From Candidatus Eubacterium faecigallinarum (GTDB lineage Bacteria; Bacillota; Clostridia; Oscillospirales; Acutalibacteraceae), in the NCBI GenBank assembly GCA_019115455.1, contig DXDN01000005.1, forward strand, positions 124,001-188,000: a stretch of DNA of 64,000 nucleotides, given 5' to 3'. Below the pieces are notes generated by a model that made no database searches, was not told the DNA's origin, and saw only the letters and a program-made list of their open reading frames with translations. The translations under genes were made by a program, and so were the position numbers. Below are positions 2,566-9,682 of the stretch, one piece after another. Position 1 is the first letter of the stretch. The number at the start of each line of letters is the position of its first letter.

Positions 2566-2569
2566 ATGT

Positions 2570-2647
2570 ACTCACAACCACCGGTTGAACTGGTAGTCTG
2601 AGTAGGAACTAAAAGAGCCGCTACCGGCTCGCTGACAGAAAGTCGGC
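2570..2647 (+). other. Compact array of three hairpins (unidentified structured element; possible IS200/IS605-type end remnant or RNA)
   Basis: ACTCA..ACCACCGG(ttgaa)CTGGTAGT..TGAGT (2570-2603), GAGCCG(ctac)CGGCTC (2615-2630), GCTGAC(agaaa)GTCGGC (2631-2647). Confidence 0.6.
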
Positions 2648-2677
2648 ACTGAAATTTGATATTGTATTACTATTTTA

Positions 2678-2712
2678 AACAGCCGCTTTCGTGCGGCTGT
2701 TTTGCTTTTTGC
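2678..2712 (+). terminator. Rho-independent terminator downstream of nrdR
   Basis: ACAGCCGC(tttcgt)GCGGCTGT followed by TTTGCTTTTT. Confidence 0.85.
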
Positions 2713-2831
2713 TTACTTAATATCTTACATTTCGTTTGGAAATCTAAAGGCATTTAAACATAGCTATACTGATTTTGATAAAAATAAAGTATTTTATATT
2801 ATATAGTGAAAATGCTAAATTCAGCAGAGCT

Positions 2832-2909
2832 AACAGTTCAATTGAACTGTTCTATTCTATTCTATTCTTAATGATATTAACTGAGAATATGAATAAACTC
2901 AATAAACTC
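2832..2909. repeat. 20-bp perfect palindrome followed by TTCTA pentamer repeats and a 9-bp tandem duplication
   Basis: AACAGTTCAATTGAACTGTT 2832-2851; TTCTA x3 plus TTCT 2850-2868; AATAAACTC x2 at 2892-2909. Confidence 0.85.
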
Positions 2910-2918
2910 TCCTATTAA

Positions 2919-2947
2919 TTGACAAAGAATGCATTTATTGTTAATAT
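2919..2947 (+). promoter_or_regulatory. Sigma-A promoter for the retron ncRNA/RT (TTGACA-17-TAATAT)
   Basis: TTGACA 2919-2924 and TAATAT 2942-2947; predicted start about 2954, at the 5' end of a1. Confidence 0.85.
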
Positions 2948-2954
2948 TAAATTA

Positions 2955-3133
2955 TAACAGTGGTGATAGCGTTACCTTGGTGATTGCAGGTCAAGGTTGA
3001 ATAGCGAGTCGCTATTCGTGATTATAAAATTATGTTCAACTTACGAAAGTTGTTCCACTTGATAAGAATAATCGCTTCACGATTTACAATCAAGCTTCAC
3101 AACATTTCTTATCACATTGTATCACCACTGTTA
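2955..3133 (+). ncRNA. Retron msr-msd ncRNA
   Basis: 14-bp perfect a1/a2 inverted repeat TAACAGTGGTGATA (2955-2968) / TATCACCACTGTTA (3120-3133); candidate branching G at 2969 in TAGC; msr hairpins ACCTTG/CAAGGT (2974-2997), GAATAGCG(agt)CGCTATTC (2999-3017), CAACTT(acga)AAGTTG (3037-3052); msd stem TGATAAGAA/TTCTTATCA (3060-3068/3106-3114); directly upstream of a retron-type RT. Confidence 0.9.
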
Positions 3134-3146
3134 ATTGGGAGTAACT

Positions 3147-4040
3147 ATGGAAAACGAACTGATAAACGGAATTAGCAATAGAGAACTTTATTATTTATCA
3201 AATAACGCTAATAAACTGTATCATAGAATTACAATCCCAAAGAAAAACGGCAAATATAGAATTGTGTATGCACCAAGCCAAAATTTAAAATGGTGTCAAA
3301 AGCAAATTGCAGAAAACTATCTTAACGATTATCATATTTCTAAATATGCTACAGCATATCAAAGGAAAATCAGCATTGTTGATAATGCAGCAGTACACTC
3401 AAACAAGAAATTTATACTAAAGCTTGATATTGAAAATTTTTTCGGAAGCATTGATTTCAATAAAGTTTTCAATATGTTTTATAGGCATTATCCAAAGAAT
3501 ATAAGCAAGCTGTTTGCAGAAATATGCACATATAAGGATACCCTTGTGCAGGGCTCTCCGGCATCACCTGTAATATCAAACATTGTTATGTACGATATTG
3601 ATACTATTATTGGGAATCTATGCCGGGAGAGGGGAGTTACTTACACTCGTTATTGTGATGATTTAACTTTTTCGTCAAACGCTAAACTTTATGATGTGTA
3701 TCATTTTGTGAAGCGATTACTGTTGAAATATGGTTTTTATCTGAATGGCAGAAAGACTCACTTTGTCAATAACAGTCATCAACAAAATGTAACCGGAATA
3801 GTTGTAAACAAAAAGCCACAGGTATCCGCAGAATATAGAAGAAAACTTAGGCAGGAAATATATTACTGTAAAAAGTACGGTGTTGAAAATCACATTGCAC
3901 ACTGTAATTTAAACTATAGCGCCTGTGAATATTTGTATAAATTAAAGGGAAAAATTGGTTTTGTTTTATCCGTGAATAAGAATGACAAGGAATTTACGGA
4001 ATATCTGGTTTTTATAAATGATTTGATAAAGATATTCTGA
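3147..4040 (+). CDS. Retron-type reverse transcriptase
   Basis: About 297 aa from ATG 3147 (RBS GGGAG 3137-3141). NAAVH (retron region X), LKLDIENFFGSI, QGSPASPVISN, YTRYCDDLTFS (YxDD), NVTGIVVN (region Y VTG). Confidence 0.95.
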   Translation: MENELINGISNRELYYLSNNANKLYHRITIPKKNGKYRIVYAPSQNLKWCQKQIAENYLNDYHISKYATAYQRKISIVDNAAVHSNKKFILKLDIENFFGSIDFNKVFNMFYRHYPKNISKLFAEICTYKDTLVQGSPASPVISNIVMYDIDTIIGNLCRERGVTYTRYCDDLTFSSNAKLYDVYHFVKRLLLKYGFYLNGRKTHFVNNSHQQNVTGIVVNKKPQVSAEYRRKLRQEIYYCKKYGVENHIAHCNLNYSACEYLYKLKGKIGFVLSVNKNDKEFTEYLVFINDLIKIF

Positions 4041-4117
4041 ATATCTGCTGCCGAGTGCAATTATATGCTGTCATAGCGTTCTGGCAGACACACGAATATA
4101 AAATCCAAAAAATTAAA

Positions 4118-4153
4118 AACAGACTGTTGTGAAAATCATAACAGTCTGTTTTA
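4118..4153 (+). terminator. Rho-independent terminator downstream of the retron RT
   Basis: AACAGACTGTT(gtgaaaatcat)AACAGTCTGTT followed by TTTA. Confidence 0.75.
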
Positions 4154-4264
4154 CTATTTGATTAAGAGGATAATAAAGCACAGCGCATAACAGGATTGTC
4201 ATAACAGTTAGAACTCACTAAATTGTTATTACGTTATTTACCTGCCTTTATGTGCTTTTTTGTT

Positions 4265-4984
4265 TTACTGTTCGCCCAGGGATTTGACGAAATTAGTTAT
4301 ATTTTCTTTTGCCGCAGCTTCGTCCAATCCGGCAGAATAGGTTATCTGATAAATCGTATTGCCGTTAGCGTAGAAAATAAATCCTGAGTAACCGAATTGC
4401 TCGTCGCCCATGTATGTTACGACTACGTCCATACCGTTTACATTTATGATTTCGCCGGTGCTGTTTTCATCGCCCGTGCTCCAGAATCCGTCAATATCTT
4501 CTTGTTCTATGTCCTGTATAACGGTCATGGAAATTGAACCACCATTGTCGTTTGACATGTCGTACATTGCGGATGTGTATTGGGGGAGGAAATCAATTTT
4601 ATTGTCGATATGGTATTCTTTACTTATAAGATCTCCCGGGATTATAACATCTTTAAAGCCTGAGTCCATAAGAGTTTTTACGATATCGTTATCAGTATCG
4701 CTTAACTTCTTCGGATTTTTCTGTGCTTTTGAAAACTGGAGCGAGAAGTCGCTAAATTCCGTTATTTCAACAATTCCCTTGTTATCATTCATAACTCTGA
4801 CAACGGCGGCTGTAACACTTGTTGCCGCCAGCAGGAAAACGACTGCCGCAATCAGAGCGATTACTTTTTTACTGAGCTTGATTCTTTTCTTTTCGGTATC
4901 TTTTGACACAGCTACCATCCTTTCTACTAATTCACTGTCAGGCTCTATGCCGTCAAAATACTCTGTAATTCTATTCTTAAGCAT
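4265..4984 (-). CDS. Putative anti-sigma factor/DUF4367-like membrane protein
   Basis: Single TM segment after a cytoplasmic N-terminus; C-terminal domain with GNTIYQITYS...; overlaps an upstream ECF sigma gene. Confidence 0.7.
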   Translation of the reverse strand: MLKNRITEYFDGIEPDSELVERMVAVSKDTEKKRIKLSKKVIALIAAVVFLLAATSVTAAVVRVMNDNKGIVEITEFSDFSLQFSKAQKNPKKLSDTDNDIVKTLMDSGFKDVIIPGDLISKEYHIDNKIDFLPQYTSAMYDMSNDNGGSISMTVIQDIEQEDIDGFWSTGDENSTGEIINVNGMDVVVTYMGDEQFGYSGFIFYANGNTIYQITYSAGLDEAAAKENITNFVKSLGEQ

Positions 4985-6097: not shown

Positions 6098-7038
6098 ATG
6101 AACTTTCTCTCCTTATAGTCTGTTAAGAGTTTAATGTTTTTTGCCTGAAATTCTTTTTTGTCAAGATAGCTCAGATTATTTTCATCGCTGAAATCAAATA
6201 TAAGCTTATAGCTGTAAAGCGCCTGCCTGTACCGCCCTTTGTTCTCACCGTATTTTCCGTCGCCGAACAACGGGTGACCCACGTGGGCAAGGTGAGCTCT
6301 TATCTGGTGAGTCCTTCCGGTCAGAAGCTTTATCTCAAGCAAAGATGCGTCGGGGTAGTAATCAAGAACGCTGTATCTTGTGATTATCTTTTTTGAGCCA
6401 GGTTGTTCCTGCTCGCTTACGCTTACTTTGTTTTTCCTTTCGTCCTTGGTGAGATAAGCAGTCAGGGTCTCGCCGGGCTGGGGCATCTTTCCGTGCACTA
6501 CGGCAAGATAGTATTTATCTATTTCACGGCTTTTCAGTTTGGTGTTTAGTGTTTTGAGTGATGCTGAATTTTTCGCCGCTATAACGATGCCGCCCGTGTT
6601 GCGGTCAAGCCTGTTTGCCAGGGACGGAGTAAAGGAGGATGAATCGGGCGACCACTCGCCTTTTTCATACAAATACCGCTTGAGCCTTGCCACCAGGTTG
6701 TCTGTGTAATCTCTGCCGTCGGGATGGCACAGAACACCTATCTCTTTATTTATAAGTACAATGTTTTCGTCTTCATAAATTATGTCAAGCTTGGTACCGG
6801 CTTTTAAAAAATCATAGTATTTAGTCTTTTCGTGCAGTACGTCATCCTTTAGATATAGCTCCAGCACATCGCCCTGATTCAGTATCTGCTCAGGGGCGCA
6901 GCGTTTTTTGTTGACCTTTATGTTCTTTTTTCTGATTTCTTTGAACATCAGGGATTTGGGCATTTTGTCAAAAGTTTTGAGTATGTACCTGTCAACTCTC
7001 TGACCTGCGTCGCCTGCCGTTATTGTAATGCTTTTCAT
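6094..7038 (-). CDS. RluA family pseudouridine synthase
   Basis: S4-like N-terminus, ANRLDRNTGGIVIAAK catalytic motif, LLTGRTHQIRAHLAHVGHPLFGDGKYG. Confidence 0.95.
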   Translation of the reverse strand: MKSITITAGDAGQRVDRYILKTFDKMPKSLMFKEIRKKNIKVNKKRCAPEQILNQGDVLELYLKDDVLHEKTKYYDFLKAGTKLDIIYEDENIVLINKEIGVLCHPDGRDYTDNLVARLKRYLYEKGEWSPDSSSFTPSLANRLDRNTGGIVIAAKNSASLKTLNTKLKSREIDKYYLAVVHGKMPQPGETLTAYLTKDERKNKVSVSEQEQPGSKKIITRYSVLDYYPDASLLEIKLLTGRTHQIRAHLAHVGHPLFGDGKYGENKGRYRQALYSYKLIFDFSDENNLSYLDKKEFQAKNIKLLTDYKERKFI

Positions 7039-9340: not shown

Positions 9341-9682
9341 TTGATGATTAAACGAGGCGAAATTTATTATGCCGACCTTAGCCCGGTAGTAGGCTCTGAA
9401 CAGGGAGGGGTAAGACCCGTGCTCATAGTTCAAAACGATGTCGGCAATAAATTTTCTCCCACAGTGATTGCCGCCGCCATAACCTCTCAGAAAGATAAAA
9501 ACAATCTGCCCACCCACATTGAGGTGGACGCCAGACACTGCGGACTGGCAAAGGACAGCATAGTCCTGCTGGAGCAGGTCAGAACCATTGACAAACGCAG
9601 ACTGAAAGAAAAGATGGGCAGCCTTGACAACGGCGACATGGGAAAAGTGAATCAGGCGCTCAGCGTAAGCTTCGGTCTTTGA
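9341..9682 (+). CDS. MazF/PemK (NdoA) family endoribonuclease toxin
   Basis: KRGEIYYADLSPVVGSEQGGVRPVLIVQND...TSIVLLEQVRTIDKRRL-like; canonical PemK/MazF family. Confidence 0.95.
   Translation: MMIKRGEIYYADLSPVVGSEQGGVRPVLIVQNDVGNKFSPTVIAAAITSQKDKNNLPTHIEVDARHCGLAKDSIVLLEQVRTIDKRRLKEKMGSLDNGDMGKVNQALSVSFGL

Follow-up and report, generated by a model that had tools for sequence, protein, structure and literature searches.

Among the described retrons, Ec107 (Retron-Eco5) of E. coli has been validated experimentally; its reverse transcriptase (RT) carries a YCDD box, and the element is described as taking the place of 34 bp of intergenic sequence, no mobile element being close by (PMC6868368). 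Its expression goes up in phosphate starvation and in stationary phase (PMC6868368), a pattern compatible with either a stress-linked or a defence role. The E. coli locus is ordered pyrE, retron, slmA, and a related sequence was found in 378 of 5426 complete genomes. The best match, in E. coli 2020CK-00188 (L160, 2670-3629), is an annotated pseudogene with an internal stop; E. coli strain Z0117EC0005 (L164) holds an intact Ec107 copy. Retron-Bth1 has also been described without an obvious effector (PMC12548924), and a literature search for work on effector-less retrons found nothing specific in the papers covered. Ec107 is the type case for the question of what retrons without an effector gene do.

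A 64,000-nt stretch of DNA from Candidatus Eubacterium faecigallinarum (the window) was analysed, and the locus studied here is a retron of the Ec107 type, a fresh member of a family already known and ordinary within it. An intact RT under purifying selection, a retron RT fold, a covarying Ec107-class ncRNA and the lack of an adjacent effector were found by computation, and the best explanation is, with high confidence, an intact, self-contained Ec107-type (Eco5-type) solo retron. Its features are listed below.

Whole element: a compact unit between nrdR, which ends at 2565, and the anti-sigma gene at 4265-4984, which is convergent.
2919-2947, + strand: predicted promoter of the sigma-A type for the ncRNA, TTGACA-17 nt-TAATAT (consensus scan, 10/12 matches).
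2955-2968, + strand: a1 arm of the msr-msd ncRNA (pairs with 3120-3133 as a perfect inverted repeat; covariation).
2968-2970, + strand: A-G-C with the predicted priming or branching guanosine, G2969 (alignment invariance, AGC context).
2974-2997, + strand: msr hairpin 1 (fold; compensatory changes among four same-genus copies).
2999-3017, + strand: msr hairpin 2, whose GCG-AGU-CGC apex is the clade signature (recurrence and covariation).
3019-3038, + strand: weak third hairpin (fold only).
3045-3108, + strand: msd hairpin, GAAAGTTGT..CTTGAT / ATCAAG..ACAACATTTC, with an inner AATCG/CGATT stem (fold, covariation).
3025-3119, + strand: predicted reverse-transcribed template (msd), ~94 nt (mapped from the Ec107 msDNA; ends +/- several nt).
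3120-3133, + strand: a2 arm (inverted repeat with a1; covariation).
3137-3141, + strand: Shine-Dalgarno GGGAG of the RT (read directly in the sequence).
3147-4040, + strand: ORF of the Ec107-like retron RT, 297 aa, ATG at 3147 and stop at 4040 (models, tree, fold).
RT motifs: NAAVH, residues 80-84; QGSPASP; YCDD, residues 169-172 (nt 3651-3662); VTG, residues 215-217.
4116-4152, + strand: strong intrinsic terminator-like hairpin, 17 pairs with a 3-nt loop (scan).

By the consensus scan, the transcription start expected from the predicted promoter lies within a few bases of a1. The preliminary description had reported a 14-bp inverted repeat at 2955-2968/3120-3133, ending 13 nt before the RT ORF, within a unit bounded by a promoter and a terminator and lying between nrdR and an ECF/anti-sigma pair. 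The coordinates of the repeat were right, with 13 nt from the end of a2 to the RT ATG; the promoter and the terminator were both located by scan (2919-2947 and 4116-4152), and the genomic position was borne out. Elsewhere in the window, at 9341-9682, a MazF/PemK-like toxin ORF was recognised by eye from its translation.

The comparison of the RT with 61 PADLOC models gave RT_Ec107-like as the best model (370 bits; next RT_III-A, 321), which was also the best for E. coli Ec107 (440 bits) and for the close relative L170 (385 bits). The window RT scored 244.7 bits with NCBIfam NF038233 (retron St85 family; cut-off 235) and weakly, 57 bits, with group II RT models. The AlphaFold model of the RT had a pLDDT of 92, and the best 18 PDB chains in the fold search were all retron RTs; the PDB sequence and fold searches returned Ec86, Eco7/Ec78, Eco2/Ec67 and Ec83 first, followed by Eco8 and then by group II introns. 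NAAVH, YCDD and VTG were confirmed in the translation and in the alignment, every retron or catalytic motif is kept, and the hallmarks read earlier from the sequence (NAAVH, QGSPASP, YCDD and VTG) are all present. The YCDD box had further been proposed to mark an uncharacterised subtype, a proposal that fails because the validated Ec107 has YCDD (PMC6868368).

A tree of 144 RTs placed the window RT with E. coli Ec107 in a 70-row clade, with an SH-aLRT of 94 that is just below the starred level in what is a quick tree. This Ec107-like clade is sister to the clade containing the type III retrons, and the window RT groups with retron RTs, not with group II intron, DGR or Abi RTs. RT matches were present in 32 of the 300 genomes searched in the family sample and in 5 of 80 genomes of the genus, the window counted. 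In the species-representative collection 591 candidates were confirmed and 80 kept, and the Bacillota share of the clade is biased upward because the kept loci were picked by similarity to a window-based alignment. A viral scan with a single protein query gave no match, and one with an alignment gave more distant retron RTs only. A 16-row clade of the tree unites L035, L042, L051 and L070 with E. coli Ec107 (L160, L164), and the enterobacterial Ec107-like RTs are nested among Lachnospiraceae and Mycoplasmatota sequences. A transfer of Ec107 from gut Bacillota would fit this nesting, in a sampling skewed to the kin of the window.

The two closest relatives of the RT are 64% and 60% identical to it. 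The dN against both was ~0.3 (0.31) with dS saturated, indicating that the RT is under purifying selection. This selection on an intact RT, together with the strongly covarying a1/a2 stem described below, agrees with the earlier claim of an intact retron and makes it likely that msDNA is produced from the locus.

The a1 and a2 arms match perfectly as inverted repeats over 14 bp and are 151 nt apart. Of 3000 Markov resamplings of this region 7 held a repeat of such length, which puts the repeat beyond chance. The fold of the ncRNA strand was better than that of all 200 dinucleotide shuffles (200/200, z -4.1), and no Rfam family was found at its gathering score in the window. The alignment of 40 relatives showed compensatory changes at 9 of the 9 modelled a1/a2 pairs, and the covarying elements were the a1/a2 stem, the GCG-AGU-CGC hairpin and the msd stem. 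The consensus of these three had 89% of its cells paired, a value that is biased upward because the consensus structure was drawn from the alignment used for the pair counts. Double-change cells numbered 283, against a mean of 92 in shuffles and no more than 113 when the partners were slid. All ncRNA pairs are kept in the window copy. The G after a1, previously assigned to the branching context, lies in AGC at 2968-2970 and is invariant (G16 of the alignment, equal to G2969; 40/40 sequences).

The msd pairing supported by the fold and by four close copies comprises 3045-3053/3099-3108, 3058-3063/3089-3094 and 3070-3074/3080-3084, and its CTTGAT/ATCAAG part covaries both in the 40-sequence alignment and in the four close copies. 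The 9-bp stem 3060-3068/3106-3114, which had been taken as msd-like, is present and is intact in the window only; close relatives break it and none compensates. It was rejected as the msd for its lack of covariation, the homologues supporting a different, longer hairpin. The third hairpin (3019-3038) was absent from the consensus of the four same-genus copies.

An ncRNA architecture like that of the window was found upstream of most clade members, a1/a2 being conserved in these homologous loci. Within the Ec107-like clade the GCGARTCGY hairpin precedes 56 of 64 RTs, and it is present in E. coli Ec107 too. The sister type III clade had it at only 3 of 17 loci, and among 13200 shuffled regions it turned up in 15. 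The a1 arms of the clade have wholly different sequences and end in (T/C)A, with GC or GT as the usual next bases; the a2 arms begin after TTG or a similar triplet, with a junction that is often TTG|T(A/G). Since relatives mostly have an ncRNA of 150-220 nt, the length of about 180 nt does not mark the uncharacterised subtype that had been suggested.

A covariance model was built from the upstream regions of 40 clade members, among them the window (102 bits) and E. coli Ec107 (100 bits), whose scores are therefore scores inside the model. Clade members left out of the model were found by it at 117 bits (L162), 98 bits (L026) and 94 bits (L020), and these matches are free of the bias that affects the paired percentage. 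A set of 68 loci from type III retrons and other retrons gave no score above 20 bits. Genus-wide, the model matched the window, its two closest relatives, and a broken copy and a fused-RT copy in genome G021, as well as a degenerate RT-less copy in G344 and one marginal sequence in G313. The degenerate msr-msd-like RNA of G344 (L181, ~6552-6729, minus strand; 55 bits) has a1/a2 pairing and adjoins an apparent tRNA array.

Two same-genus Ec107-like RTs are longer, with 532 aa in G021 (L031, 11369-12967) and 526 aa in G358 (L184, 4879-6459). The two fused proteins are 42% identical over their length and have a C-terminal region of ~170 aa in common. This region was not recognised by Pfam, and a search for it in the 300 family genomes returned G021 only, G358 not being among the matches. 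The fused C-terminal domain is possibly an effector, and a fused effector within an otherwise solo clade would be informative. G021 also holds a broken Ec107-like RT with 5 stops (L031, 6821-7757), ~5 kb away from the fused RT and in the neighbourhood of WYL, DUF2779 and GmrSD genes; its ncRNA keeps a perfect a1/a2 of 17 bp.

Between nrdR and the anti-sigma gene no effector gene was found, and besides the retron there are only short spurious ORFs; none of those within the gaps or on the strand opposite the RT is longer than 61 aa. The window RT carries no fused effector and has no PRTase or winged-helix gene beside it. The preliminary description called the retron complete; this holds for the RT and the ncRNA needed for msDNA synthesis, and not for an effector gene, which is absent, so that, measured against a tripartite defence retron, the locus is missing its third component. 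Across ~60 clade relatives no neighbouring gene family recurred, close strains and background genes aside. In comparison, 11 type III or related loci have a common upstream gene, which at L163, a type III locus, is annotated as uracil phosphoribosyltransferase. A homologue of the type III PRTase, sought elsewhere in the genome of the window, was not found; effector absence was assessed by synteny, and an unlinked effector unlike the tested PRTase would escape. In the close relative L170 a co-directional metallophosphoesterase gene lies ~30 nt downstream of the RT and is not beside the RTs of other members.

The flanking nrdR lies within a conserved gene order, and the anti-sigma/ECF pair is at the same site in a same-genus genome without the retron. 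In the same-genus genome G309 (L186, 908-1498, compared with window 2566-4264) two small ORFs occupy the interval between the same flanks, nrdR and anti-sigma, where the window has the retron, indicating that the spacer is variable and that the flanking genes are outside the retron system. By eye, the small ORFs of G309 are spore-coat CotF-like. A precise empty site could not be defined because they fill the spacer. A preference for insertion between convergent genes, prompted by the pyrE/slmA and nrdR/anti-sigma sites, was rejected, since the orientations of flanking genes at 54 clade loci were near random (18/13/12/11).

In the proposed working of the locus, the promoter would give the ~180-nt msr-msd RNA and then the RT message, and a1 would pair with a2 to close the msr-msd RNA. 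Recognition of the msr by the RT would probably involve the AGU-loop hairpin and, on the protein side, the C-terminal region Y; the RT would then prime from the 2'-OH of G2969 in its AGC context (context per PMC6868368). The msd would be copied to a fixed stop, giving a single-stranded msDNA kept in complex with the RT, and the host RNase H would strip the template RNA during copying. Template removal by RNase H is established in other retrons and is reported to affect the length of the Eco5 RT-DNA (PMC8989520). The predicted msDNA length, ~94 nt, comes from mapping the extent of the 107-nt Ec107 msDNA through the alignment. The 2'-5' priming, the msDNA product and the RNP are expected by analogy with the family. 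Most likely, the RT-msDNA complex would act by itself or together with an unlinked host factor. The locus may have a part in phage defence, a possibility to which we give somewhat less than even credence.

Most studied retrons defend with an effector (PMC12548924), and the locus could accordingly belong to a tripartite phage-defence retron, with its toxic effector either at another place in the genome or among the flanking genes, nrdR or the ECF/anti-sigma pair. Two close relatives do sit in islands with WYL, DUF2779 and GmrSD-type genes, one of which starts with a serine recombinase-like gene. We consider this reading unlikely, as the flanking genes are chromosomal, no gene family is recurrent beside the clade and the genome has no homologue of the type III PRTase. 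Decay of a former defence retron after loss of its effector is a still less probable account. It draws on the broken RT (L005) and the degenerate RT-less ncRNA of G344 within the genus, on the internal stop of the E. coli copy in L160 and on the rarity of the element in the genus (5 of 80 genomes); against it, the window RT is intact with low dN versus saturated dS, and the catalytic motifs, ncRNA pairs, promoter and terminator are all kept. The solo state, moreover, extends across the clade from Bacillota to Enterobacterales, which argues that no fresh loss of an effector took place.

An RT of the group II intron, DGR or Abi/DRT type accompanied by a chance inverted repeat could appeal to the weak 57-bit group II scores, but this reading has a negligible probability and is refuted by the model scores, the tree, the fold matches and the covarying ncRNA, which all point to a retron. 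The intact Ec107-type solo retron is thus preferred. A broader and more tentative proposal, plausible to us without being probable, is that effector-less Ec107-like retrons form a large lineage that has its centre in gut Bacillota and also takes in the E. coli element, with RT and msDNA as the whole functional unit or as partners of unlinked host proteins, outside the tripartite toxin model. If so, the fused-RT branch in two same-genus genomes would have acquired an effector of its own.

Within the collections searched, gut Bacillota commonly carry Ec107-like solo retrons that share one covarying ncRNA, the effector-free state being common to the clade across Bacillota and Enterobacterales, and a covariance model for the Ec107-like ncRNA is an outcome of this work. 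The window copy is a compact, intact example, of modest interest by itself and of more interest for the solo-retron question.

Compared with known retrons, the window RT exceeds the cut-off of the St85 family model NF038233, whereas the cassette of St85/Sen2 has an accessory gene (PMC6868368) and the window has none. The type III-A retrons are the sister clade in the RT tree, the second-best PADLOC family and a group in which a few members have the AGU-loop hairpin; they differ in their PRTase and winged-helix effectors, none of which is upstream of the window RT, and in giving no match above noise with the ncRNA model of the window clade. Ec107 itself lies at pyrE-slmA in E. coli, while the window copy is AT-rich and sits at an nrdR/anti-sigma site in a gut Bacillota host, with a predicted msd of ~94 nt versus 107 and an RT of 297 versus 319 aa. 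Both elements are without an adjacent effector and lie between chromosomal housekeeping genes. Their RTs are 43% identical and have the YCDD catalytic box in common, the AGU-loop msr hairpin, the a1|GCG junction and the msd layout are alike, and one covariance model fits both.
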